Shown here: positions 28,172-46,820 of the stretch, one piece after another
Layout: the number at the start of each line of letters is the position of its first letter
Numbering within the stretch: the first letter of the stretch is position 1
Origin: Leptolyngbya sp. SIO1E4
GTDB taxonomy: Bacteria > Cyanobacteriota > Cyanobacteriia > Phormidesmidales > Phormidesmidaceae
Assembly: GCA_010672825.2 (NCBI GenBank)
Contig: JAAHFU020000002.1
Location: forward strand, 1,066,001-1,130,000
Direction of reading: 5' to 3'
DNA: 64,000 nucleotides
Translations under genes and position numbers: made by a program
Notes under the pieces: generated by a model
What the model was told of the DNA's origin: nothing
Databases searched by the model: none
Seen by the model: only the letters and a program-made list of their open reading frames with translations

Positions 28172-28576
28172 TTAACCCGAGGCTGTCTCCGGCTCACGCT
28201 GCTGCTGGAGGAAGCGCTGTAACCTCCACAAATTCAGGCTTTGAGCTAAGTTAAGCGGCAATCCTGAAATGCCTTCTAGACGGGATTGTACCCACCCGTC
28301 TCCCCAGCACCATTCGTGAAAGCCATCCACGCCTTCCCAGACGACGATTCGCATACTTTGGGGTGAGAGCGCGGTCACTTCATGGTGGATCTTGATTGGC
28401 CCCAGATAGCTAATAAAAGTGGTACCCACCTCTAAGATATCTGGGAGCCCTTCAGAGAATGTCTGGGGCCATAGCCACTGCTTAAACTGACGAGGCTGCA
28501 GCAAGCTATCACGAATGACCGCTGTTGTCGCCTCTATCTCAACTCGCAGGGTTGTTTGCTGAAAAGTGCCAAACAT
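28172..28576 (-). CDS. SRPBCC-like (START-fold) small protein
   Basis: A 134-aa soluble protein beginning MFGTFQQTTLRVEIEATTAV. It has the alternating strand pattern of the Bet v1/START fold: an N-terminal strand, two short helices (AVIRDSLLQPRQFKQWLWP), then antiparallel strands (VGTTFISYLG, IKIHHEVTAL, MRIVVWEGVDG). A long C-terminal helix follows (LAQSLNLWRLQRFLQQQ). This architecture is used for binding hydrophobic ligands. No ligand or pathway can be assigned. It is convergent with hisD and downstream of opcA. Confidence 0.65.
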   Translation of the reverse strand: MFGTFQQTTLRVEIEATTAVIRDSLLQPRQFKQWLWPQTFSEGLPDILEVGTTFISYLGPIKIHHEVTALSPQSMRIVVWEGVDGFHEWCWGDGWVQSRLEGISGLPLNLAQSLNLWRLQRFLQQQREPETASG

Positions 28577-28759: not shown

Positions 28760-30091
28760 TCATGGGCAGAGGCGGAGGATTTGGTCAGCCATGGCTAAGC
28801 TTTCTTGATAGAGGATATCTTCACCCCAGCGCTGAAGTTGCTGCCCCAAAATGAGGTCGGCTCTCTGGTCAGAAATCGCGCTAACCTCTTCTACACGGCA
28901 GGATTGGGCACCCCCTCCAGCCTCCATCCGCATACAGCCTGTTGTTTCAGAACAGAGAATTGTGCAGCAGTCTGCATCTTGATTGCTGGAAGCTAGGCGA
29001 ATACCCACCAGATCACCAATGACTTCTCCGACATCTGCAACCGGAATTGCGGCCAGTTCTGCTTCAATCTCTTTACCGCGATCGCCTTCAAAATAGATTT
29101 TGCGGATGTCATAATCCCCCCCTTCATCGGCATAGCGCTTAGGTGTCCAGCCCAGGCGGCTAGCAAACCAGCCCAGGAACAGCAGCGCCTGAGCGGCATT
29201 ACCGGGTTCATGATCGATACTGATGTGATCAATCTCAATCAGGGCGTCGCGTCGCTCAGGGGGGTCGAAGGCTTCTGCCGTTAGCTCTTGCCAGGGGAAG
29301 AGGCGGTGCCAGTTGAGGTCTGCGATATATTTGCCAGATTCAGTAATCTCCTGAATCTTATTCAGTTCCGATTCCACTTCACTGAAGTAGCTAGAATCCA
29401 CAATCAAGCAGTTGCTGGTTTCAGCTAACTGACGAAAGAGGCTCTGCTCAGGGTTCGGTGTTGCTTTCCACCAAACAAACTTAGGGAGATCGCCAATCAG
29501 CAAGGAGGAAACCATGCCTGCTACTCGTTCGAGGGCAGTCTTGGTTCCCCGCAGGGCGATATATTCACAGCAAATGAGGTTGCTGGCGTTCCGCTTTTGA
29601 ACTGGGCAGTAGGCTGATACTTGTGCAGTGACCCCCTCATCCTCATCCAGGGTAGGACAGAGGGTGATGACCCGGCAGGGATTGTAGGCAGAGATCGCTT
29701 CACTCAAGGTAAATCCGCGTAAATCTGGATTAGAGATGACTTTTTGTTGCTCAGGAAGCTTGGCATATTCTGCCCGTAGGCGAGCCAGGGTGTGTTCTCC
29801 CACCCGACCGGTAACCCGCAACCCATAAGCCATTTGGGCTTGCCTCACTGCTTCCCGGGTCTGAGCCCCATGGATGCCATCGATCGCGCCTTTATAGAAA
29901 GCCAGGGCAGCGAGTAACTGTTGAAACTCTTCGGGTTCATAAACCACGATACTAAAAGTGGTTGCCCGAGTCGCAACTGGAGCAGTGGTGCCAGAATCTT
30001 GACTACGCCAAATATTCCGGAGTTCACTTTCGATCTCCTCAACGGAAATATCTTTGGGTTTTTGCAGCGCAACAACAGGGGTGGTGATCAT
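28760..30091 (-). CDS. opcA: Glucose-6-phosphate dehydrogenase assembly/activator protein OpcA
   Basis: A 443-aa protein required for activation of the cyanobacterial Zwf enzyme. The N-terminus has a peptidoglycan-binding-like segment (AALAFYKGAIDGIHGAQTRE, GLRVTGRVGEHTLARL, about residues 60-105). The rest matches OpcA: DLRGFTLSEAISAYNPCRVI near 150, FVWWKATPNPEQSLFRQLAE, and NLVGIRLASSN-type sequence near 355. It lies 107 bp downstream of zwf on the same strand, the standard cyanobacterial order. Redox control via OpcA cysteines is known for the family; Cys residues are seen at YNPCRVITLCPTL, but which are functional is not determined here. Confidence 0.95.
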   Translation of the reverse strand: MITTPVVALQKPKDISVEEIESELRNIWRSQDSGTTAPVATRATTFSIVVYEPEEFQQLLAALAFYKGAIDGIHGAQTREAVRQAQMAYGLRVTGRVGEHTLARLRAEYAKLPEQQKVISNPDLRGFTLSEAISAYNPCRVITLCPTLDEDEGVTAQVSAYCPVQKRNASNLICCEYIALRGTKTALERVAGMVSSLLIGDLPKFVWWKATPNPEQSLFRQLAETSNCLIVDSSYFSEVESELNKIQEITESGKYIADLNWHRLFPWQELTAEAFDPPERRDALIEIDHISIDHEPGNAAQALLFLGWFASRLGWTPKRYADEGGDYDIRKIYFEGDRGKEIEAELAAIPVADVGEVIGDLVGIRLASSNQDADCCTILCSETTGCMRMEAGGGAQSCRVEEVSAISDQRADLILGQQLQRWGEDILYQESLAMADQILRLCP

Positions 30092-33133: not shown

Positions 33134-34195
33134 TCAGGGACGGGGAGCTGCCAAAGACGCTTGTTCTCGAATGCGTTCTTGAATAAATGACTCCACCAGA
33201 GCCACATCTTCAGGGCTGCCAATGACCAGCGGCGTCCGTTCATGGAGTTCTGAGGGGACTACATCCAGCAAGGGTTGCAACCCTGTACTGGCACGCCCTC
33301 CGGCCTGCTCAATCAAAAAGCCCAGCGGTGCCGTTTCGTATAGCAACCGCAATTTACCCTTGGGCTTTTTGACAGTCCCTGGATACAGAAAGACCCCTCC
33401 CTGCATCAAAATACGGTGGAAATCGCCCACCAAAGCTCCGCTATAGCGCAGGGAATAGCCCTCATGGCGATGGACATATCGGATAAAATCGCGAATGGAA
33501 TCATCCCATTGCCAGAAATTGCCCTCATTCACGCTGTAGTTGGGGCCATGCTCTGGTATGCGAATGTTTTCAGCGGCAAGAATAAATTCTCCTAGGCTGG
33601 GATCCAACGTAAAGGCATGAACCCCGCGCCCAATCGAGTAAACCAGCACAGTGGTTGGGCCATAGACGATATACCCTGCGGCCAACTGTTCCCGCCCAGA
33701 CTGCAACAAATCGGAGGCGGCGTGATCCATGTCTTCTGCTGTCTGTCGGCGAATCGCGAAGATAGAGCCAACATTCAGGTTGATATCGACGTTAGAAGAG
33801 CCATCAATGGGGTCATACAAGAGCGTGTAGCGACCAATGGGGCAATTTTCAGGAATGTAGTAGGGTTTCTCCATTTCCTCAGACGCCAGACGGCAGACTA
33901 AGCCACTCTGCTTAAAGACAGAAATGAAGACGTCGTTGGCAAAAACGTCCATTTTTTTGACTTCTTCGCCCTGTACGTTGGTGCGGCCCGTAAAGCCTAA
34001 GGCGTCTTCCACCAGCCCAGCCCGGGACAGGCGACGGGCAATCAGCTTGCCAGCAAGGGCAATACGGCTCATTAACGCACTCAAGTCCTGGGCTTCGGGG
34101 CCAAAACTCTGAAGTTGTTGCAGGACGTGACGAGATAGGGTCGTACAATCACGATCTAGGGTATGTTCTGAAGATGGTTGATACTTTTCAGCCAT
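33134..34195 (-). CDS. fbp: Fructose-1,6-bisphosphatase class I
   Basis: A 353-aa enzyme that dephosphorylates fructose-1,6-bisphosphate. The metal-binding signature DPIDGSSN is at residues 128-135, with an upstream [11 protein letters not shown] block and the substrate region [20 protein letters not shown], then [15 protein letters not shown] lies 6 bp before the ATG. Cyanobacteria usually also carry a separate class II FBPase/SBPase for the Calvin cycle; this class I gene heads the cluster fbp-tal-zwf-opcA, so it probably serves the oxidative pentose phosphate recycle in the dark, which is a known association. Confidence 0.97.
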
Positions 34196-34496
34196 TTAAG
34201 TCTCCTGGCTGGGCGGTCATTAGCATGAGTCCGCGCAACTCAAAGGTTCAATGTGTACTCACACCTGCAACCTATGGTAGAAAGCCCACCCAGAAAGCGA
34301 AGAAGTCTTTAGATCAGCTAAAGATTAACTCAATGAAAGGTATTGAAAGATACCCTAACTAAGCGATGAAGCTTATGTTTAGGCGTTTTCAGCGCTGTCA
34401 AAGCAGCCCGATAATTAATGAGGGCCAATAATAACAAGGGCTGCCCCAGCGTTGATGCTAATGAATATGGCTGAGAAGAGGCTGACGCTATTAACG
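34196..34496. other. Intergenic region upstream of fbp
   Basis: 301 bp between the histidine kinase stop and the fbp start, same strand. A small inverted repeat GGTAT...ATACC occurs near 34340-34355. It probably contains the fbp operon promoter, but no clear box pair was seen. Confidence 0.4.
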
Positions 34497-36944
34497 CTAT
34501 TGATGTAAAGGAATAATGACCTGAAACTCGGTGCCATGGCAGGGGTCCGACGTGTAGATTAGGTGCCCCCCGTGTTTTTCAGTCACAATGCGATGGCTAA
34601 TCGAAAGCCCTAAGCCAGTACCCTGGCCGATGGGTTTTGTGGTGAAAAAGGGATCAAATAACCGGGCTCGATTTTCTTCAGGAATCCCTGGGCCGTTATC
34701 ACGAATTCGAACCATGACCTGGTCATTTACGATTTCTGTGAAAATTGCAATGCTGGGGGCTTCTGCCTCATTTGCTCGTTCTCCTGCGGCAATCTGTTGG
34801 TTTAGCGCATCTACAGCATTGCTAATTAAATTCATAAACACTTGATTGAGCTGGCTGGGATAGCATTCCACCAGGGGTAAGTGCCCATATTGTTTGACGA
34901 TCTGAATTTCTGAGCGATGGGGCTTGGCTTTCAAACGATGATGCAAAATCAGGAGCGTACTGTCGATACCCGCATGAATATCAACTGCTTTTTTCTCTGC
35001 TTCATCTAATCGTGAAAAGGTGCGTAGCGATCGCACGATCTGCTGAATACGGTTGCTTCCAACCTGAAGTGACTGCAAGATTTTTTCTGAATCCTGTAAC
35101 AAATATCCCAATTCGATAGTTTCAATCTGCTCGGCGATCTCCGGCACTGGACTCGGATAATGTTGCTGATAAAGCTTTAGCAGCCGCATCAGATCGCTAA
35201 AATACTCCTTCAGGTAATCGATGTTGCCGTGAATAAAGTTGACCGGGTTATTAATCTCATGGGCAATCCCCGCCACCATTTGCCCCAAACTTGACATTTT
35301 CTCAGTTTGTATGAGTTGTGCCTGAGTTTGCTGAAGATTCAGGATGACGGCTTCTAGCTGATCGGCTTTTTCCTGAGCAGCCGTCGCACTTGCTTTTGCC
35401 TGGGCATACAGCTCGGCCTGCTTGATGGCGACTCCGACCTGTCCGGCCAAAGCTTGCAGCAGCTCGATCTCATCCTCTTTCCATTCCCGGGGGCCAGAAC
35501 ATTGATGGGCGATTAATAGCCCCCAGAGCTTATTTTGCACCAGAATCGGGACGATCAGATTAGCCTTTACCTGAAGACTTTTGAGGTAGTCTCGGTGGCA
35601 CTCATCAATTTCTGCCACCTCAATATCGGTGACGGCTCGTATCCGACCTTGACAGTACAGTTCGGCGTACTTCTGTGGAAAGCAGCTGTCCATGCCCATT
35701 TCCCCAAGGATGGGTGACCAGGGTGGATTCGTAGATTCCACAACGATGTGCCCCTGCCAAGCTTCCTCAAAGCGGTATATCAATACCCGATCCGCCTTAA
35801 AGAGTTGGCGCACTTCGTGAACTGTGGTTTCTTGGATAACCTTGAGTTTCAGGGACTGGCGAATTTGGGTAGAGATTTGGTTGAGCAGTTCTTCCTGCTT
35901 TGCCAATTTCCGAAAGGTTTGCTCAGACTGTTTCAGCAAATCTTCAGCAATTTTGCGTTCGGTAATGTCCTCAATGGTGCCCAGTAGACCAATTACGTTG
36001 CCTTCTGCATCATGCAGAGGAAACTTGCTCGTCTCTCGCCAACTTAATTGCCCATCGGCCTGGAGTTGGGATTGCTTGATGCGCAGCATGGGGGTATCGG
36101 TGGCCATCACCCGGCGATCGCATTCTACGTACCAGTCCTTTTGCTCCTGTGTCCAGGGAAGGACATCATCCGTGAGGCCGATAACATTGCTAGGATTACC
36201 AATTCCAGCCATTTCAGCCCAGCGGCGATTGCAGCCTAGGTAGACAGAGTTGAGATCTTTCCAAAAGATGTACTGGGGAATGTTATCCAAGACGAGCTGC
36301 ATAAACTCTGCCGTCTGGCGCAGCGGATCCCCCTGGCGCTGGGCAATATCCTGGGAACCTTCGGGGATGTCTGAACTGGGCTGGGTCGCTGGATCTTGAA
36401 GGGACACCGGCAAATTGGCCAGAGACGCGATTTCTAAACCAGGCATCTCAACCCCAACCAGGGAGTCGGGTTGGGCTGCCAGTTGGCTGGCGGCGGCTAG
36501 CCCTGCCTCTTTTAGGAGACGATCTTGTGTCTGAACAGAGGCTTCTCGACTGATGCTCAGGATCTGATCAACCTGTCCTTGCTGATCGATTAAGGGAGTA
36601 TAAGTCGTTTCATACAGCTGCACCCCCGTGGCTGTTGGAAAGCTGTGGATCCGTCGCTGGGCACAACCTTGATGCAAGACGGTTGCGATCGCGTCCTCTA
36701 CCTGTCGCCAATATTTCCGCAATGTCTTGGGTTGCTGGGCCTGCTCGGCCAAGTCTGCCAAGTCAGCATTTGTCTGATTCAGCAAGGCAGCTGCAGGGCA
36801 TTGGAGCGCTTCCGTTAGGGCTGGACTCACAGCCTGATAACGGCGATCGAACCCATAGCAGGCCATTATTTCTAAAGATTGCTCAACCAGTTGCTGTAAT
36901 CCGCCAGAGGCGATAGAGGCAGGAGAGGAGTTGGCGACATTCAT
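34497..36944 (-). CDS. PAS-GAF sensor histidine kinase, candidate DXCF cyanobacteriochrome
   Basis: An 815-aa soluble kinase. Residues ~20-140 look like a degenerate PAS domain. Residues ~207-335 are a PAS domain with a C-terminal TIEDITERKIAEDLL motif. Residues ~355-515 form a GAF domain of the cyanobacterial phytochrome-like type. In it, Asp419-Ser-Cys421-Phe422 and Cys449-His450 are separated by 28 residues, the arrangement of DXCF cyanobacteriochromes, and LWGLLIAHQCSGPREW is the usual C-terminal block. A coiled-coil linker leads to the HisKA domain (MVAGIAHEINNPVNF, phospho-acceptor His562) and an HATPase domain with N-box (NLISNAVDAL), DNGPGIP and GQGTGLGL. Binding of a bilin is inference; redox or ligand sensing is an alternative. 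No response regulator is adjacent. Confidence 0.93.
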   Translation of the reverse strand: MNVANSSPASIASGGLQQLVEQSLEIMACYGFDRRYQAVSPALTEALQCPAAALLNQTNADLADLAEQAQQPKTLRKYWRQVEDAIATVLHQGCAQRRIHSFPTATGVQLYETTYTPLIDQQGQVDQILSISREASVQTQDRLLKEAGLAAASQLAAQPDSLVGVEMPGLEIASLANLPVSLQDPATQPSSDIPEGSQDIAQRQGDPLRQTAEFMQLVLDNIPQYIFWKDLNSVYLGCNRRWAEMAGIGNPSNVIGLTDDVLPWTQEQKDWYVECDRRVMATDTPMLRIKQSQLQADGQLSWRETSKFPLHDAEGNVIGLLGTIEDITERKIAEDLLKQSEQTFRKLAKQEELLNQISTQIRQSLKLKVIQETTVHEVRQLFKADRVLIYRFEEAWQGHIVVESTNPPWSPILGEMGMDSCFPQKYAELYCQGRIRAVTDIEVAEIDECHRDYLKSLQVKANLIVPILVQNKLWGLLIAHQCSGPREWKEDEIELLQALAGQVGVAIKQAELYAQAKASATAAQEKADQLEAVILNLQQTQAQLIQTEKMSSLGQMVAGIAHEINNPVNFIHGNIDYLKEYFSDLMRLLKLYQQHYPSPVPEIAEQIETIELGYLLQDSEKILQSLQVGSNRIQQIVRSLRTFSRLDEAEKKAVDIHAGIDSTLLILHHRLKAKPHRSEIQIVKQYGHLPLVECYPSQLNQVFMNLISNAVDALNQQIAAGERANEAEAPSIAIFTEIVNDQVMVRIRDNGPGIPEENRARLFDPFFTTKPIGQGTGLGLSISHRIVTEKHGGHLIYTSDPCHGTEFQVIIPLHQ

Positions 36945-37671
36945 CTAGGTTTCTGGAGGCTTATCAAGGTCATTGAGTCTTGGCGAAGCCTGCCGACGGC
37001 AAGGCTGCGATGGCTAACGATGTCAGGATAAGGCGCGTAAATCCAGAACTCAGAGGGCTGCGGCTGATACACATCATCAAATGGATGAACCTCAATGCTG
37101 CGTAACCTCCCTTAATCCCACCTTTCTAGGGCGAGGAATCCAGTTTTCTCCCTTTGCAAAGGGGAGTGAGAGGGGGGTACGACCTGCTTTGGGGGAAGGG
37201 ATGGACTTATGTATAAGCCGCTGCTCAGAATTATGAAGGTAACTCATGCCTGGTAGATTCATACGCCAATGTTCCTAAGGGAACATAAAACTGAATCCGT
37301 GAGTTACTCCCTTTAAGGGTTAGTCGTACTCGCTGCCGATTTTTCTTTCAACCAAGCTGCCCAAACTCAGCAGGTTTGGGCCACATCTTATTTGTACGCT
37401 ACATCCCTAGTTTGACGAACGTAGATTTCACTGAGATCTGTGGTTACTGGCGGGAAACTTTGTCCAGGATAGTTCGACAGCTACCATAAATGCTGGCTTA
37501 CAGCGCTTAGTATGGGCGGGGAAACCCCAACCTCAGGCAAATTACGCAATTTGACGTGGGGCTCTGCCCGTCTGTTGTCTGTCAGGGGGTAGGATTGGGG
37601 ATGTTCCTGACAGCTTAAATCGGGGTTTCTCCTCGATTTTCTTGACGTTTTGGTAACCAGGACTTTGCCCT
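36945..37671. other. Long intergenic region upstream of the ABC transporter
   Basis: 727 bp without a credible gene. It contains an imperfect hairpin CTCCCTTTG.CAAAGGGGAG (about 37148-37166) in a degenerate repeat, the nested inverted repeat 37239-37307, a palindrome CCCTT-T-AAGGG just after it, a GGGG-AAA-CCCC hairpin near 37518, and CAAATT-ACGC-AATTTG near 37537-37552. The transporter promoter probably lies here. No clear GTA-N8-TAC NtcA site was found. Confidence 0.5.
37239..37307. repeat. Nested inverted repeat (three stacked stems)
   Basis: GTAACTCA (37239-37246) pairs with TGAGTTAC (37300-37307). GATTCA (37256-37261) pairs with TGAATC (37292-37297). ATGTTCC (37269-37275) pairs with GGAACAT (37280-37286) around a TAAG loop. 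The nesting gives a 69-bp stem-loop with internal loops. Confidence 0.7.
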
Positions 37672-38937
37672 ATGGTGTTTGACCCTAGACAATGGCGGCT
37701 CGTCCGCCGCCGGGACTTTCTGCGGGGGACAGCAGGCTTTGGTGCTGCGATCGCCCTTGCGAAGCTCACAAGCTGCGCCAGCGCTGACCTGCCAGAAACT
37801 GCAGATGAATCTGCGGCCTCGGATACGGCGGCCAGTAGCGGTGAACCGATCAAGCTGGGGTTGGTCGCAGCGATCACTGGGCCTTCGGCGCTATCTGGAG
37901 AAGCCATTACCCGGGGGTTAGAGGTCGCGATCGCTGAGATTAACGACAACGGGGGAGTGATGGGGGGCCGCCCCATTGAACTGGTGATTCGAGATGATGA
38001 ATCCACACCGGCTAAAGGGGTTGCGGCTGCGCGTGAACTGATTGAGCAGGCGCAAGTTGCGGCCATTTTTGGGGGGCTAGATTCTCCCGTTTCCCTGGCG
38101 ATGCTGCCGGTGATTCATGAATTAGAGACACCCTATATGGGGGTTTGGGCTGCTGCCACAGGCATCACGCGCAATGACTTTGACCCCAACTATGCCTTTC
38201 GGGTATCTGCTAATGACAATATCGTAGACAGCTTCCTAATGCGCTATGCCCAGCAAGAAAAAGGGGCCTCCAAGGTGGGCTTAGTGCTGATTAACAACCC
38301 TTGGGGAGAATCGAATCAGGTTGGATTTGAGCAGTGGGCCCCAGAATATGGGATCGAAATTGTTGGCATTGAGAAATTCAATGACGGCGATACCGATATT
38401 TCTGCTCAGCTCAGCCGTCTCCAGGAGGGGGGCGCAGAAACCCTGCTGCTGGTAGCCAATGCTGCCCCCGGGGCTCAAATGATGAAATCCTTAGTGCGCC
38501 TAAACTGGGAGGTGCCTGTGATTTCGCACTGGGGGATTTCTGGGGGGCGCTTTCCAGAGCTGGCGGGGGCAGATGCGGCTAGCAAAGTTACGTTTGTTCA
38601 AACCTACAGCTTTTACGGCGAACAAAGCCCTGTCGGTAAACGAGTCCTTGCGGCCCTGCAGGAAAAATATGGCTTGGCTGGCCCAGAAGATATTCTGGCC
38701 CCCGTAGGCATTGCCAATGCCTACGATGCCATGCACTTGATGGCGCTGGCTTTAGAGACGGCTGCAGCGACGGATGGCCCCACACTCCGGGAGGCACTCT
38801 ACAATTTGCCGACCTATGAGGGTCTGATTAAAACCTACGAGCAGCCCTTCACGCCAGACAACCACGATGCCCTAAATGAGGATGACTATATTCTGGTGCA
38901 GTGGGACGACACCCAGATTGTGCCGATAGCGTCTTAG
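37672..38937 (+). CDS. ABC transporter substrate-binding protein (branched-chain amino acid type)
   Basis: A 421-aa type I periplasmic binding protein. The N-terminus has a twin-arginine motif (RRRDFLRG) and a lipobox ending LTSC with lipidated Cys35, so it is probably a Tat-exported lipoprotein. The mature domain begins PIKLGLVAAITGPSALSGEA and has GLEVAIAEINDNGGVMGGRP and AIFGGLDSPVSLAMLPV, typical of LivK/HAAT-family proteins that bind branched-chain or related amino acids, amides or urea. The exact ligand is not resolvable. It starts an operon with the two transporter genes downstream (15-bp gap). Confidence 0.9.
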   Translation: MVFDPRQWRLVRRRDFLRGTAGFGAAIALAKLTSCASADLPETADESAASDTAASSGEPIKLGLVAAITGPSALSGEAITRGLEVAIAEINDNGGVMGGRPIELVIRDDESTPAKGVAAARELIEQAQVAAIFGGLDSPVSLAMLPVIHELETPYMGVWAAATGITRNDFDPNYAFRVSANDNIVDSFLMRYAQQEKGASKVGLVLINNPWGESNQVGFEQWAPEYGIEIVGIEKFNDGDTDISAQLSRLQEGGAETLLLVANAAPGAQMMKSLVRLNWEVPVISHWGISGGRFPELAGADAASKVTFVQTYSFYGEQSPVGKRVLAALQEKYGLAGPEDILAPVGIANAYDAMHLMALALETAAATDGPTLREALYNLPTYEGLIKTYEQPFTPDNHDALNEDDYILVQWDDTQIVPIAS

Positions 38938-38952
38938 GGTCATAGAACGGTT

Positions 38953-39822
38953 ATGTGGCCACAGCTAATTCTTTCTGGCATGGCGATCGGGAGCATGTAT
39001 GGTCTGGTCGCCCTGGGGTTTCAAATTACCTATGCTGTCTCGAACACCATGAACTTCTCCCAAGGGGCGTTTGTCATGGTGGGGGCCGTGTTGTGTTACA
39101 GCTTCAACATTACTTGGGGGCTGCCTGCGATCGCCGCTGTTCCCCTCACTCTGGCGATTTGCCTGGGGCTGGGGACTGTGGTAGAGCGCTGGATCGTGCG
39201 CCCCTTTGCCCAAAATGGCTCCCATGCCTGGCTGCTAAGCACCATTGCCTTAGGCATCATTGCCGAAAACCTGGCCATGGTGACCTTTGGCAAAGAAGTG
39301 CGGGGCTATCCCTCACCGTTAGCGGAGGTGCCGGTGTCGATTCTGGGGTTTGGAGTGTTCCCACTGGAGCTGTTGATTCCAGTGGTGGGGCTAGCGACCG
39401 CGATCGCCCTCCGCATACTGTTCACCCAAACCCTCCTTGGCAAAGCTTTTCAAGCAGCGAGTGAAAATCCTGATACGGCTCAGCTGATGGGGGTCCCGGT
39501 GGCGCGGCTGATTGCCCTGTCCTTTGGCCTGTCTACCGGGCTGGCAGGGCTGGCGGGCATGCTAATTGCCCCCATTGCGAACGTGTCTGCCACCATGGGC
39601 ACCTTGTTGGGCCTCAAAGCCTTTGCAACCGCAATTATTGGAGGGTTAGGGAATCCCTGGGGTGTGGTTGTGGCTGGGGTCGTATACGGAGTTGTGGAAT
39701 CGGTGGCAGCAGGGACCTTGGGGGGCAGCTACCGGGAGATCATCGGATTTGCAGTCGTGATTTTAGTGTTGGCACTCCGGCCCAACGGCTTATTTGGGCG
39801 GGCTCAGGTGAAGAAGGTTTAG
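38953..39822 (+). CDS. livH: Branched-chain amino acid type ABC permease LivH
   Basis: A 289-aa membrane protein with about eight hydrophobic segments. LivH hallmarks include GMAIGSMYGLVALGFQITYA with NTMNFSQGAFVMVGA after it, the cytoplasmic GKAFQAASENPDTAQLMGVP loop that contacts the ATPase, and the GLKAFATAIIGGLGNPWG helix. It lies between the binding protein and the fused permease-ATPase gene, with a 2-bp gap to the latter. Confidence 0.94.
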   Translation: MWPQLILSGMAIGSMYGLVALGFQITYAVSNTMNFSQGAFVMVGAVLCYSFNITWGLPAIAAVPLTLAICLGLGTVVERWIVRPFAQNGSHAWLLSTIALGIIAENLAMVTFGKEVRGYPSPLAEVPVSILGFGVFPLELLIPVVGLATAIALRILFTQTLLGKAFQAASENPDTAQLMGVPVARLIALSFGLSTGLAGLAGMLIAPIANVSATMGTLLGLKAFATAIIGGLGNPWGVVVAGVVYGVVESVAAGTLGGSYREIIGFAVVILVLALRPNGLFGRAQVKKV

Positions 39823-39824
39823 GG

Positions 39825-42305
39825 ATGAAGACGCGTATCGCCATTGGCATCGGAATTTTTATCGTCGTGATTGCTGCCACTCTGGCAGCCCCTAATACCT
39901 ACTACCTCTTCATCCTGGGGATGATTGGTGTCACCACCCTGGTATCGGTGGGGTTAAATATCCTGGCTGGGCTATCCGGGCAGATTTCCATCGGTCACGC
40001 AGGCTTTTTTGCGATTGGAGCCTATACAGGGAGTCTCCTGATGCTGAGAGGCCAGTGGCATTTTGGGCTGGCACTAGCCATGGCAGTGGTGACTGCCGCC
40101 GGGACTGGCGCTGCAGTGGCGGCTCCGGCCCTGCGGGTAAGTGGCCCTTATCTCGCCATGGTCACCATTGCCTTTGGCATCATTGTTGAGCGCATTTTGA
40201 TTGAATGGGTGGGGCTCACGGGGGGGTTTGGGGGGCTCACAGCCATCCCCAAGCCAACGCTGTTGGGGCTGCAACCGGCCCTGCGAGACAGCGTGCTGCT
40301 GGTGTTAATCGTTGCCCTTCTCGCGGTGTTGGCCTTTGCGTTACTCAAGCAGCACCCTTGGGGACGGGCATTTCAGGCGGTGCGAGACGACGCGATCGCA
40401 GCTGCTGCGGTGGGACTAAACCCCCTCTATGTGCGGGTGATGGCCTTTGCCGTGTCGGCAGCATTGACAGGGGTGGCCGGGATCTTTTTTGCGGCGATCG
40501 TGGGCTTTGTCAGCCCTGACAGTTTCACCTTCCACCGCTCTATCTTGTTTTTGTTGGCGGTCATTTTGGGCGGGCTGGGAATCGCAGAAGGGGCTTTTAT
40601 CGGGGCGATCGTCTTAGTCATTCTGCCGGAATTTCTCCATGACCTGGCTGAATATCAACTGTTGGTGTTTGGGGCGCTGCTACTCCTGACTTTGCGGCTA
40701 GCGCCCAATGGTGTGATGAGCCTGTTTAAGCGCTGGCTGGGGCATCGGACACCGGTTTATCCGTTACCGACTGCTCCAGATCTGCCGCCGTTAGTGGCTC
40801 AACGCCAAACCCATACGCCTCTAGAAGTAGACACTGTCACCATCTACTTTGGGGGGATTCGCGCGGTTGAGCAGGTCAGTTTGACGGCTAAACCAGGAAC
40901 TATCACTGCTGTCATTGGCCCTAACGGGGCCGGTAAGACGACGTTATTGAACTTGATTAGCGGCTTCTACCGGCCCCAATCGGGTGCAATTCGCTTAGGG
41001 CAGACCGATTTGACTGACCTGGCCAGTCGCCAAATTGCCACCCTCGGCGTCAGTCGAACCTTTCAAGCGACGCGCCTGTTTAATTCTTTGTCAGTGTTGG
41101 ACAATTTACGGGTAGCGGCTGTGGGGGCTCGGTTGGGGGCCATATTCACCGCCTTGCTGGGGGTCGGGTGCAATCGCCAACCCGAAAAATCAATTTTAGA
41201 GGTGCTCTCCTTTGTCGGCTATCGGGGAGATGTCCATCAGGTTGCAGCCGCTTTGGCCTTTGGCGATCGCCGCCTGGTAGAAATGGCCCGGGCCTTGATG
41301 ACTCAACCCCAGGTATTACTGTTAGACGAACCAGCTGCGGGGCTCAGCAAGGACGACAAAATGGCGTTGGCCCACTTGATTCGCCGCATTGCCAGCAGCG
41401 GCCTCAAGGTGATTCTGATCGAGCACGATATGGAATTGGTGATGGGCATTTCAGACACAGTGCTGGTGATGGATAGTGGCCTGGCAATTGCTTCTGGCCC
41501 TCCCGGTCAGGTGCAGCAAGACCCCAAAGTTCTAGAAGCCTACTTAGGGACTGAAACATCTTCGTCTGATCTGCTCCCAACTCGCCCTCCCATTACCTCC
41601 CCCCTGTTGGTGGTGCAGGATTTAGTGGCGGGATATGGTACTTTGCAGGTGCTGAAAGGGCTCTCCCTGGAAGTGAATCAAGGGGAATTGGTGGCAGTGG
41701 TCGGGGCCAATGGGGCTGGAAAAAGCACGCTGTTGAAGAGTCTGGTAAACCTGCTCCCTCCCTGGTCGGGGCAAGCCCAGTTCCTGGGGCGATCGCTTTC
41801 TGCCATCCCGGCTCACCAAATGGCCCATACGGGCATTGTGCTAGTGCCTGAGGGCCGCCAAGTCTTTCGGGAACTCGACGTGGTTGATAATCTTCGACTG
41901 GGCGCGTTTCATCGTCGGGATGCTGGGGTTGATGAAGACATCGAACGCATGTTGCACCGGTTTCCTCGGTTGCGGGAACGCCAAGGGCAGAAAGCGGGGT
42001 TATTGTCTGGTGGCGAACAGCAGATGTTAGCCATTGCCCGAGGGCTGATGGCCCGCCCCCAATTGCTGCTGCTGGATGAGCCGTCTCTAGGGCTAGCGCC
42101 TCAGTTGGTCACGGGCCTCTACGCGACCCTGGCTGATCTGCGAGATGAAGGCATGACGATTTTGCTGGTGGATCAAATGGCCGGATTAGCATTAGCGATC
42201 GCCGATCGCGCCTATTTGCTAGAAACAGGCCAGATTGTCCGTTCCGGTACTGCCGCAGACCTACGAGACGATCCCGCGATCGCCGAAGTCTATCTCGGCG
42301 GCTAA
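39825..42305 (+). CDS. Fused LivM permease - LivG ATPase - LivF ATPase
   Basis: An 826-aa protein fusing three normally separate subunits. Residues ~1-305 are a LivM-like permease (VGLNILAGLSGQISIGHAGF, VRDDAIAAAAVGLNP, ILGGLGIAEGAFIGA). Residues ~330-570 are a LivG-type ATPase with Walker A GPNGAGKTT (~365), an atypical LivG signature LAFGDRRLVEMARA and Walker B VLLLDEPAAGLS. Residues ~594-826 are a LivF-type ATPase with Walker A GANGAGKST (~627), signature LSGGEQQML (~727) and Walker B LLLLDEPSLGLAP. Pro/Thr-rich linkers (VYPLPTAPDLPP, SSDLLPTRPP) join the parts. The reading frame is uninterrupted, so the fusion is not due to a lost stop alone. Two consecutive hairpins follow the stop. Confidence 0.94.
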   Translation: MKTRIAIGIGIFIVVIAATLAAPNTYYLFILGMIGVTTLVSVGLNILAGLSGQISIGHAGFFAIGAYTGSLLMLRGQWHFGLALAMAVVTAAGTGAAVAAPALRVSGPYLAMVTIAFGIIVERILIEWVGLTGGFGGLTAIPKPTLLGLQPALRDSVLLVLIVALLAVLAFALLKQHPWGRAFQAVRDDAIAAAAVGLNPLYVRVMAFAVSAALTGVAGIFFAAIVGFVSPDSFTFHRSILFLLAVILGGLGIAEGAFIGAIVLVILPEFLHDLAEYQLLVFGALLLLTLRLAPNGVMSLFKRWLGHRTPVYPLPTAPDLPPLVAQRQTHTPLEVDTVTIYFGGIRAVEQVSLTAKPGTITAVIGPNGAGKTTLLNLISGFYRPQSGAIRLGQTDLTDLASRQIATLGVSRTFQATRLFNSLSVLDNLRVAAVGARLGAIFTALLGVGCNRQPEKSILEVLSFVGYRGDVHQVAAALAFGDRRLVEMARALMTQPQVLLLDEPAAGLSKDDKMALAHLIRRIASSGLKVILIEHDMELVMGISDTVLVMDSGLAIASGPPGQVQQDPKVLEAYLGTETSSSDLLPTRPPITSPLLVVQDLVAGYGTLQVLKGLSLEVNQGELVAVVGANGAGKSTLLKSLVNLLPPWSGQAQFLGRSLSAIPAHQMAHTGIVLVPEGRQVFRELDVVDNLRLGAFHRRDAGVDEDIERMLHRFPRLRERQGQKAGLLSGGEQQMLAIARGLMARPQLLLLDEPSLGLAPQLVTGLYATLADLRDEGMTILLVDQMAGLALAIADRAYLLETGQIVRSGTAADLRDDPAIAEVYLGG

Positions 42306-42314
42306 TGCGCCTCA

Positions 42315-42368
42315 GTCAGGCTGCGCTGATGCCTGACCCCGTGTACTCCATGTATATAGGGAGTACAC
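42315..42368. terminator. Two consecutive hairpins between convergent genes
   Basis: GTCAGGC (42315-42321) pairs with GCCTGAC (42331-42337). GTGTACTCC (42341-42349) pairs with GGAGTACAC (42360-42368). They lie right after the fused transporter gene. There is no T-run, so termination is probable by position only. Confidence 0.5.
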
Positions 42369-42472
42369 CGTGAGGTTTCTGGCGATTATCCCTTAAATTT
42401 GCCTGAAGTCTTTTCAGACAACAGCGAGAGAACGCGACGCCCGTGTTTTGAGCGAGCCCTATTCGACAAGCC

Positions 42473-43291
42473 CTATTCAACAGGATAAGTTACCAGCACT
42501 TCCCGATAGACTTCTACTTCGGCAGGTGCTTCTGGATTGTAATAGCTGGATTCAGCACTCCAAAATAGCGCCCCGATAACGTCTGTTTCTTCATTACAGG
42601 GTGAGAGAAATCGACCCAAGAAAGGGAGTTCAGCCACAGAAGGCGGTTCGACTAAGGAAACATCCATGGAATTGGCGATCGCGTCTGCCCGCAACTTGGC
42701 ATCTTCCATTGCCGCAGCATAGGCACTCTGCTCGACGGTGGCGCAGCTAGTAATGGCGTACTGTACAAATACGCGGCTAATAAATGCTATCTGCTGAGGA
42801 CTCTGAGTCTCTAAAGCCTCATTAACAGTTTGCACAATCTCATTGACGCGGTCTTGGGTCGGCTGCTGGATATTCAGGGTGATGGAATTTTCTGCGCTGT
42901 AGTAGGAATAGGCTGACGCATCAATGAGGGCTAAATTAACATCAATATCGGACTCGGCCACCCCGGCCTCTACTAGGGCATCAATCACCCCTCGGAGGCT
43001 GTCGAAGGTGAGCGGCGGGAATTCTGGCACCGGAGCGGCTGCCTCTGGTTCTGGCGGAAACTCAAAGGGTGCTGCAGCGTTAGGGTCACGATTGGTTAAC
43101 CAGATATCAATTTGGGCCTGATCGGCCGGGACACTCGCTCGTCCCTGACCGGTGACAGAAACAGCCTGTTGATCCCTGACGGGGGGATACAGCAGTTGGG
43201 CGATCGCGGGTTGAATATTAAGCCCTGAGCCTGAAACGCAGACACCTAAACATAGAGAAAACCCAATAATTTTTTGAGGCCGAATGTCCAC
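42473..43291 (-). CDS. SIMPL-domain (DUF541) exported protein
   Basis: A 272-aa protein with an N-terminal signal (GFSLCLGVCVSGSGLNIQPA, then IAQ). It has the SIMPL domain start VSVTGQGRASVPADQAQIDI and later blocks NLALIDASAYSYYSAENSIT and the typical AYAAAMEDAKLRADAIANSM helix. SIMPL proteins are periplasmic or outer-membrane associated; their biochemical role is unclear, with links to oxidative stress in E. coli YggE. An acidic Pro/Ala/Glu stretch (AAPFEFPPEPEAAAPVPEF) interrupts the domain near residue 75. It diverges from pfkA. Confidence 0.9.
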   Translation of the reverse strand: MDIRPQKIIGFSLCLGVCVSGSGLNIQPAIAQLLYPPVRDQQAVSVTGQGRASVPADQAQIDIWLTNRDPNAAAPFEFPPEPEAAAPVPEFPPLTFDSLRGVIDALVEAGVAESDIDVNLALIDASAYSYYSAENSITLNIQQPTQDRVNEIVQTVNEALETQSPQQIAFISRVFVQYAITSCATVEQSAYAAAMEDAKLRADAIANSMDVSLVEPPSVAELPFLGRFLSPCNEETDVIGALFWSAESSYYNPEAPAEVEVYREVLVTYPVE

Positions 43292-43578
43292 GGAGTTTCT
43301 CCCGATAATGATGCAATAAACAGTTATTTTGAGTTTGTCTGTTTAAGAAACAAGCAGCCGTAGCTTATCGTAGAAATCCTTAAATCTTTTAGCACCTTTG
43401 GTAAAACTTAGGGTTTATAGGGCAGGCTCTATCAGCTTCTTAAAGTTACGTTGCATTTTAGGAAATAAACGCAAAGTTATCGCTGTTTCCTATCCTTTAT
43501 TTGTGAAAAAAAGGTTGCGTAAGAGAGGCCTTTTCTATATCAAGACGATATTCAAGGTGTGGGTTGGAATAAAGAGCT
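43292..43578. other. AT-rich intergenic region between the SIMPL gene and pfkA
   Basis: 287 bp holding the divergent promoters of the SIMPL gene and pfkA. No box pair stands out. The pfkA start lacks a strong ribosome-binding site (AAAGAG, 43572-43577). Confidence 0.35.
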
Positions 43579-44685
43579 ATGGCAGACATTAAACGCATTG
43601 GAATTTTGACGAGTGGTGGAGATTGTGCGGGCCTGAATGCTGCCATTCGAGCAGTCGTTCACCGAGCAATTGGCACCTATGGCTGGGAGGTGTTTGGCAT
43701 TATTCGGTCGACCCGAGGGCTCTTGCAGCGTCCGCCCCAGTTCAAGCGGTTGGAACTCGACGATACCTACCCGCTGTTAACGACCGGAGGCACTATCCTG
43801 GGAACCACAAATAAGGGCAATCCGTTTGCCTTTCCAATGCCCGATGGTTCGATTGGCGATCGCTCCCAGGAAATTATTGAGGGGTATCATCAACTCCAAT
43901 TAGATGCCCTGATTGGGGTTGGGGGGGATGGCAGCCTGGCTATTTTGCGGCGACTGGCAGCTCAAGGAGAGATTCGGCTGGTGGCTATTCCCAAAACCAT
44001 TGATAACGACTTGGGCAGCACTGAACGGGCGATTGGGTTTGATACTGCCGTCAACATTGCGACAGAAGCCTTGGATCGGCTGCACTTTACTGCCGCTAGC
44101 CATTCTCGGGTCATGATTTTAGAGGTGATGGGGCGCGATGCTGGCCACATTGCAATTAGTGCTGGTATCGCTGGCGGTGCTGACATCATCTTGATTCCAG
44201 AAATTCAGTATTCGCTAGATGCCATTTGCAATCACATTGCATGGCTTCAGAAACAGGGGCGCAGCTACGCCACGATGGTGGTTGCAGAAGCCGTTTGTAA
44301 CGAAAATGGAGAAAAAATTACCCGCGACTATGCCTTCAGTCAGTGTCGTTTGGGGGGCGTAGGACAATACCTGGCCGACAGCATTTCTGCTAGAACAGAA
44401 GCAGAAACACGCGTGACTGTTCTCGGTCACGTGCAACGGGGTGGCACCCCCTCCCCGCTGGATAGATTAACGGCAACGGTCTTTGGGGTAGCGGCCACTG
44501 ACCTCATTGCAGAAGGCCGGTTTGATCGCATGGTAAGTTGGCAAAATCGTCGGGTTGTGGATGTTCCCATTGAAAGCGCGATCGCCCATTATCAAGCCGT
44601 TGATCCCCAAGGCACCCTTGTGAGAACCGCAAGGGCAATGGGGATCTATTTGGGGGATCCCGCCAAAGTTCCTGTAAGCGTTTAG
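43579..44685 (+). CDS. pfkA: 6-phosphofructokinase
   Basis: A 368-aa enzyme that phosphorylates fructose-6-phosphate, committing carbon to glycolysis. Blocks present: GILTSGGDCAGLNAAIRA, GGDGS (115-119), PKTIDNDL (138-145), and MGRDAGHIA (184 on). The residue pair that separates ATP from pyrophosphate enzymes is mixed here: Gly118 corresponds to the ATP-type Gly104 of E. coli, while Lys139 corresponds to Gly124 and is usual in pyrophosphate or group III enzymes. This makes phosphoryl-donor choice uncertain, though ATP is more likely. It is followed by a CDF transporter gene after 34 bp. Confidence 0.94.
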   Translation: MADIKRIGILTSGGDCAGLNAAIRAVVHRAIGTYGWEVFGIIRSTRGLLQRPPQFKRLELDDTYPLLTTGGTILGTTNKGNPFAFPMPDGSIGDRSQEIIEGYHQLQLDALIGVGGDGSLAILRRLAAQGEIRLVAIPKTIDNDLGSTERAIGFDTAVNIATEALDRLHFTAASHSRVMILEVMGRDAGHIAISAGIAGGADIILIPEIQYSLDAICNHIAWLQKQGRSYATMVVAEAVCNENGEKITRDYAFSQCRLGGVGQYLADSISARTEAETRVTVLGHVQRGGTPSPLDRLTATVFGVAATDLIAEGRFDRMVSWQNRRVVDVPIESAIAHYQAVDPQGTLVRTARAMGIYLGDPAKVPVSV

Positions 44686-46363: not shown

Positions 46364-46714
46364 TTAAACATCAAGTTTAAGTTCCGCTTGAAGCACTTGA
46401 GATCTCAAGCTCAGACGGGCCTCTTCCGACGGAGAGAAAAAGATTGATGTGGCTAAACTTAGGAGAGATAGGACAATGGCACCAACCATGAAGCCAATGA
46501 TTTTGTCCTGCCCGAGTTGTGTGGCTTTATGAAGTTCTAAGATTTCTACCTTGTCTTTAAGTGCTTGAATTTCCTGATGTTGTTGCTCCAAACGATACTG
46601 CTGCAATCGGGCTTCTGAATGTAAATTTTGGCAAAAGGCAGTCACTGCATCGAGATCATTCCCAATGCCAGAACTAACAGAGTTCAGATTGGATTGAGTA
46701 TTCAATGTTGTCAT
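46364..46714 (-). CDS. Hypothetical coiled-coil and transmembrane protein
   Basis: A 116-aa protein. It has a polar N-terminus, a predicted coiled coil (about residues 35-65: RLQQYRLEQQHQEIQALKDK, VEILELHKA), then a hydrophobic helix (KIIGFMVGAIVLSLLSLATS) and a short charged end. This is a common single-span scaffold design. The ATG at 46714 (MTTLNTQSN) is chosen over 46741; GGGA lies about 10 bp upstream. No family recognised. A compact structured segment lies about 100 bp upstream of its start. Confidence 0.65.
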   Translation of the reverse strand: MTTLNTQSNLNSVSSGIGNDLDAVTAFCQNLHSEARLQQYRLEQQHQEIQALKDKVEILELHKATQLGQDKIIGFMVGAIVLSLLSLATSIFFSPSEEARLSLRSQVLQAELKLDV

Positions 46715-46820
46715 TTTTCTTATTTCCCTGATGCTTAACACTTACATCCTAAAAAAGAAGCATCAACATTCAATCGGGAAAGACAACCAAGTTTTTTTCT
46801 ATACTAAGCCACCATCCTTA

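Follow-up and report, generated by a model that had tools for sequence, protein, structure and literature searches.

Cyanobacteriochromes of the DXCF type are described, in the available parts of PMC6628166 and PMC11284453, as holding ring A of the bilin with a canonical cysteine, while a second cysteine is bonded to C10 in the dark and gives rise to blue absorption; this C10 bond is broken by light, and phycocyanobilin often becomes phycoviolobilin. Two described proteins come closest to the kinase considered here. TePixJ is a methyl-accepting chemotaxis protein with a solved GAF domain (3VV4, 4GLQ); the accessible text of PMC6955287 mentions Asp492 and Gln526 as lying next to its bilin. PPHK of Leptolyngbya sp. 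JSC-1 (6OAP, 6OAQ) is a histidine kinase whose structure was obtained in the Pg state, with 562 nm given as the measured value in the portion available of PMC11480761. A literature search, from which most subscription papers fell outside, found nothing on a cyanobacteriochrome together with zwf and opcA, or on Leptolyngbya together with DXCF.

The window, meaning the whole 64,000-nucleotide stretch of DNA that was analysed, covers positions 1066001-1130000 of contig 2 in an 8.2-Mb genome (label G000). Its minus strand carries an open reading frame for an 815-aa histidine kinase (34497..36944), in which Pfam places the domains in the order PAS-PAS-GAF-HisKA-HATPase. The original prediction of a PAS-GAF histidine kinase thus stands for GAF, HisKA and HATPase_c, but two PAS_4 stretches are present rather than one, the stronger of them (PF08448) spanning residues 219-331 (35952..36290, minus strand). 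The GAF domain occupies residues 369-507 approximately (35424..35840, minus strand; PF01590, E 8.3e-25) and is of the cyanobacteriochrome type by its sequence relatives and fold. It is followed by the phospho-accepting HisKA domain at residues 553-648 (35001..35288, minus strand; PF00512), with its AHEINNP box at 561, and by HATPase_c at residues 696-814 (34503..34859, minus strand; PF02518), where the N, G1, F and G2 boxes are all found (NLISNAVDAL at 705, DNGPGIP at 749, FFTTKP at 766 and GTGLGL at 775). Since GAF leads directly to HisKA and no PHY domain appears among the 13 Pfam families matched with E up to 1, a canonical phytochrome with a PAS-GAF-PHY photosensor is ruled out. The C-terminal kinase half (residues 514-813) resembles NCBIfam T2SS_HK (NF038348) and other HisKA kinases, but this match, at 240 bits, is limited to that half and lies under the curated cut-off of 450 bits. 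A promoter and terminator scan of 34100-37800 gave a count not above that of shuffled sequence.

Within the GAF domain, two motifs are found: MDSCF, containing Asp419-Ser-Cys421-Phe422, and ECHRDYL, containing Cys449-His450. The cysteines lie at 35682..35684 (Cys421, the second or DXCF cysteine) and 35598..35600 (Cys449, the canonical bilin cysteine) on the minus strand, and the spacing of 28 residues over 35598-35684 that had been predicted is exact in the reading frame. By phmmer, the domain matches PPHK (6oap) with E 2e-43 and TePixJ (3vv4) with E 1.7e-34, values that put its resemblance to cyanobacteriochromes beyond chance. Ranked by sequence, the closest solved relative is PPHK, followed by 8k9o (the RcaE GAF), TePixJ being the best among those with two cysteines. 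The alignment with TePixJ is ungapped, with 60 identical residues out of 150 (40%) and both cysteines in register, while 77 of 167 residues are identical in PPHK. The blocks VKANLIVPIL and LWGLLIAHQC, previously pointed out as matching cyanobacteriochromes, are indeed present and match solved cyanobacteriochromes.

The fold leads to the same correspondence. An AF2 model of the GAF domain built from eight sequences (pLDDT 87.4, pTM 0.85) superposes on TePixJ 4glq with Z 22.9 and an rmsd of 2.2, all 149 residues of the 149-residue chain being aligned. Model residues 20-168 pair with 436-584 of 4glq, and this offset of 416 sets Cys421 on 494, Cys449 on 522, Asp419 on 492, Arg434 on 507 and His450 on 523, so that the equivalence of the cysteine pair with Cys494/Cys522 named in the original prediction holds both in alignment and in superposition. 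The best fold match is PPHK (6oaq, Z 25.2), and the rows displayed by Foldseek and VIA for this model consist of cyanobacteriochromes, phytochromes and engineered derivatives of these. As phytochromes score Z 22-23, the fold alone cannot separate the two kinds; the missing PHY domain and the sequence do.

As to the pocket, the comparison with TePixJ in alignment and model finds the conserved residues still in place: Asp419 of the motif (35688..35690, minus strand), Arg434 (35643..35645, minus strand), His450 directly after the canonical cysteine (35595..35597, minus strand) and Trp409. The counterparts of Arg434 and His450, Arg507 and His523 of TePixJ, are residues that we take to belong to the bilin pocket. 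The two domains therefore share both cysteines, their spacing, Asp, Arg, His, Trp and the fold, but they differ by Tyr453 in place of Gln526 and, near the motif, by Gly417, Met418 and Ser420 where TePixJ has Ile, Glu and Pro; besides, the one belongs to a histidine kinase and the other to a chemotaxis protein. PPHK, a histidine kinase with the same type of GAF domain, differs in having Tyr where the window protein and TePixJ carry the second cysteine.

The chromophore itself can be expected in the organism, for which a phycocyanobilin supply is predicted from profile matches to heme oxygenase (PF01126, two) and Fe-bilin reductase (PF05996, one). The evidence from sequence, fold and pocket residues agrees with that from chromophore supply and kinase motifs, and on this basis we put the probability that the protein is a DXCF cyanobacteriochrome histidine kinase, predicted to attach a bilin and to respond to blue and green light, at roughly 0.8. 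Phycocyanobilin would be attached through Cys449 and probably converted to its isomer phycoviolobilin. The dark form, with Cys421 added to C10 of the bilin, would absorb in the blue; blue light would isomerise the bilin and break this second bond, yielding a green-absorbing state. The change would presumably be relayed by the helix at the end of the GAF domain to the HisKA/HATPase core, altering, in a direction that the model leaves free, the phosphorylation of a putative response regulator partner. No response regulator was seen beside the kinase among the annotated neighbours or in a scan of frames of at least 120 aa, and the frames at 28172-28576 and 46364-46741 are without Pfam match. The presence of the cysteine pair and the Asp in eight of 15 orthologs and in six chosen outgroup rows argues for the DXCF assignment. 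Against it, PPHK, the best match by both sequence and fold, has Tyr at the second-cysteine position, six of the 15 orthologs are without both cysteines, and the window GAF is not firmly grouped with TePixJ. In a tree of 51 GAF rows, which includes 15 of the 58 other GAF domains of the same genome and from which L031, L036 and L038 had been excluded beforehand, it belongs to a 25-row clade (87/85) composed chiefly of its own relatives, with TePixJ outside; the deep forks of this tree lack firm support.

With respect to colour, Phe residues at beta2 and helix alpha4 are tied to teal photoproducts in the part available of PMC5240096. At these positions, placed by eye against NpR6012g4, the window GAF has Ile400 and Leu457 and TePixJ has Val and Leu, so that neither carries a Phe there. 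A teal-DXCF assignment is disfavoured on this ground, a green photoproduct being the better guess.

It is possible, if rather doubtful, that a bilin would sit on Cys449 but form a photochemical pair other than blue/green, for instance a blue/orange-like one if phycoviolobilin is not made, or another if Cys421 does not form the second bond. DXCF photoproducts range from teal to orange according to the accessible text of PMC6628166, and the separate clade as well as Gly417, Met418 and Ser420, unlike the Ile, Glu and Pro of TePixJ, would fit such a case. However, Cys421 lies exactly on position 494, and the Trp described as an obstacle to isomerisation in the red/green kind (PMC11284453, in its available part) is absent, the residue two before the motif Asp being Gly417.

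The window kinase is one more, probably working, member of a well-studied class, and the useful part is the family around it. Fifteen orthologs were counted, the window protein included, and the named records that bear them are Leptolyngbya. L026 and L028 score under the ortholog threshold and were added for their common PAS parts; for L014 and L026, the alignment covers only the part after residue 207-208. A scan of the named genomes with the PAS-domain pattern gave 80 loci, 66 of them without a GAF match at E 1e-8, and only L039, L040 and L041 were taken from it as orthologs, these being the same as the rows of G032, G018 and G028. Both cysteines are present in eight of the 15 (L009, which is the window protein, L010-L014, L016 and L135). 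L017 retains the canonical cysteine only, the DXCF cysteine being lost and Asp419 replaced by Glu. The remaining six have neither cysteine (L015, L018, L019, L026, L028 and L136, from genomes G035, G031, G017, G012, G024 and G084), which indicates that the kinase can exist without a covalent bilin. Since the bilin cysteines number two, one or none among these orthologs, the effect of losing light sensing can be tested on one and the same kinase.

The six were compared with 14 dual-cysteine rows, namely the eight orthologs and L020-L025, the top-scoring other loci outside the genome of the window. Asp419, found in all 14, is Asn in 6/6; Val401 has become Ala in 6/6, and Ala427 (Val in TePixJ) is also changed in every one. 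Arg434 is present in 12 of the 14 rows and in one of the six, His450 in 14 and four respectively, and Trp409 is lost in four of the six. Conversely, Arg386, Tyr390, Phe422, Tyr430, Gly433, Pro466 and Trp488 are retained in 6/6. That Asp419, Cys421, Arg434, Cys449, Val401 and Trp409 went together in this group suggests that, where kept, the set is held by bilin binding. This bears on a second alternative, namely that the GAF domain is degenerate and light-blind, with a structural or dimerising role, and that the kinase responds via its PAS domains. The six orthologs are in its favour in that they retain the GAF core without both cysteines and Asp419, and keep the AHEINNP histidine box in the five rows readable there (the sixth, L019, is cut by a contig end). 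For the window protein it is nevertheless very improbable, as the residues of the set that the cysteine-less group lost are all still in place.

Judged by sequence, the cysteine-less orthologs appear to be forms of this kinase that were blinded in nature, although two of the six read as broken: those of G012 and G024 are in broken frames, and the frame of G084 meets a run of N and has an interrupted N-terminus, assembly error and decay being indistinguishable here. The ATP-site boxes are altered in L015, L018 and L136 (Pro replaced by Thr in G1, GTGLGL by GTGMGM), unchanged in L028 and unreadable in L026. A faster change of the whole GAF domain in the cysteine-less rows was considered and not seen, the mean identity to the window GAF being 0.568 against 0.579 in the dual-cysteine orthologs, with 0.80 in both groups for PAS. 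In the motif region, the values are 0.396 and 0.467. The kinase half stands at 0.577 for the four cysteine-less rows that are long enough versus 0.676 for seven dual-cysteine rows, which argues against the blind copies being otherwise unchanged.

The cysteines appear to have been lost at least once among the orthologs. In a tree calculated without residues 412-456, the cysteine-less rows fall in two groups, but the AU test does not reject a single loss (p 0.141), and the GAF-only tree, in which the motif columns are included, unites all six in one clade (100/99); two separate losses were therefore not retained. More loosely matching loci are mixed: L032-L035 and L037 have both cysteines, and so have L029 and L030, in which the full motif is missing, while L027 is without the canonical cysteine and L031, L036 and L038 are without one or both. 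The ancestral state is therefore judged from the nearer rows.

Separately, the cysteine-less genomes differ in their Fe-bilin reductase matches, at least two being found in 6/6 of them versus two of the nine ortholog genomes with at least one cysteine. These two are G028 and G032, one of the four matches of G032 being broken; the other seven have one each. G012 has one full match and one fragment with a stop, and some matches of G017 and G024 are fragments. The extra matches hint at phycoerythrin-making strains, and their distribution may reflect shared ancestry.

The second part worth following, along with the blinded orthologs, is the link to a transporter. Divergently from the kinase, on the plus strand, lie a substrate-binding protein with a Peripla_BP_6 domain match (37672..38937), a UrtB/LivH-like permease recognised by model matches under their cut-offs (38953..39822), and a permease, read from the sequence, fused to two ATPases resembling LivG/UrtD and UrtE/LivF by model (39825..42305). 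The binding protein and the permease score too low to pass the urea and branched-chain models, whereas the ATPase halves are above the cut-offs for LivG, UrtD, UrtE and also LptB; the operon would thus be a branched-chain-amino-acid/urea-type ABC transporter, by type only. A match to the binding protein (E 1e-60) occurs in 11 of 60 genomes, seven of which also carry the kinase. In four of these (G000, G028, G031 and G035) the two are adjacent, and in three (G009, G018 and G032) they are apart; on the far side of the kinase, no gene family common to the four was seen. The transporter shared by some orthologs offers an initial clue to a possible target of the kinase, and its operon is the leading candidate as functional partner. 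A fuller proposal, which we regard as unlikely, is that a kinase gated by blue and green light travels with and controls this uptake operon, and was blinded in a sister group in which two genomes kept the transporter. If this were true, the blind copies would be natural light-off controls of one signalling path.

Around the transporter of other genomes, two further genes are found. In G031 and G035, where it lies beside cysteine-less kinases, it is followed by an amidohydrolase of the cytosine-deaminase kind, under model cut-offs (L124:2293-3564 and L127:16631-17896), a hint that the transporter may carry a nitrogen compound. In G009, whose kinase is elsewhere, a 407-aa protein (L201:9121-10344) lies directly upstream of the binding protein, and its start resembles, by eye, a response-regulator receiver.

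On the other side of the kinase, the genes named in the original prediction as fbp-tal-zwf-opcA are so annotated, and its caution that their proximity might be chance is borne out. Among 59 genomes, 57 have an fbp match, and in ten regions chosen from these, fbp, zwf and opcA stand in a row in 10/10, with tal between in 5/10, and both kinase and transporter are absent from all ten. Nor was fbp found in 14 ortholog neighbourhoods; three of these, in G014, G017 and G059, are weak cases, the kinase there lying at the edge of its contig or close to it. In 12 ortholog genomes, fbp is matched on a different contig from the kinase or, in G032, at a distance of 1.28 Mb from it. G010 has pfk and fbp side by side in divergent orientation, separated by 460 bp. 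In the window, where pfk is at 43579, the interval 34196-43578 between the two genes is taken up by the kinase together with the transporter and a SIMPL gene, a block that looks inserted. A functional link giving light control over dark carbon metabolism is hence hardly credible, even though the kinase lies on the strand of fbp and 301 bp upstream of it, because this arrangement is not conserved and the readable orthologs lie elsewhere; the suggestive placing of a light sensor by these genes fails across relatives. The OpcA of the window (28760-30091) has an N-terminal domain of the peptidoglycan-binding type (PF01471) ahead of its G6PD-assembly domains.

Finally, the window GAF appears ordinary in its own genome, where it would be one of about six domains with the DXCF pattern. 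The genome has 59 GAF places, and in a rough alignment of the other 58 with the window GAF, in which distant domains are aligned unsurely, 17 have a cysteine at the canonical position and five (L140, L142, L144, L146 and L152) have the full D-x-C-F and C-H with a spacing of 28. The paralog at G000:C2:657171-658724 (L006) is 55% identical over the GAF-kinase part and retains DNCF and CH, but belongs to a bigger protein, with an open frame of 1147 aa. At G000:C7:56330-56749 (L008, L146), a GAF domain with DDCF and CH lies in a frame of just 194 aa and is a possible stand-alone DXCF domain.
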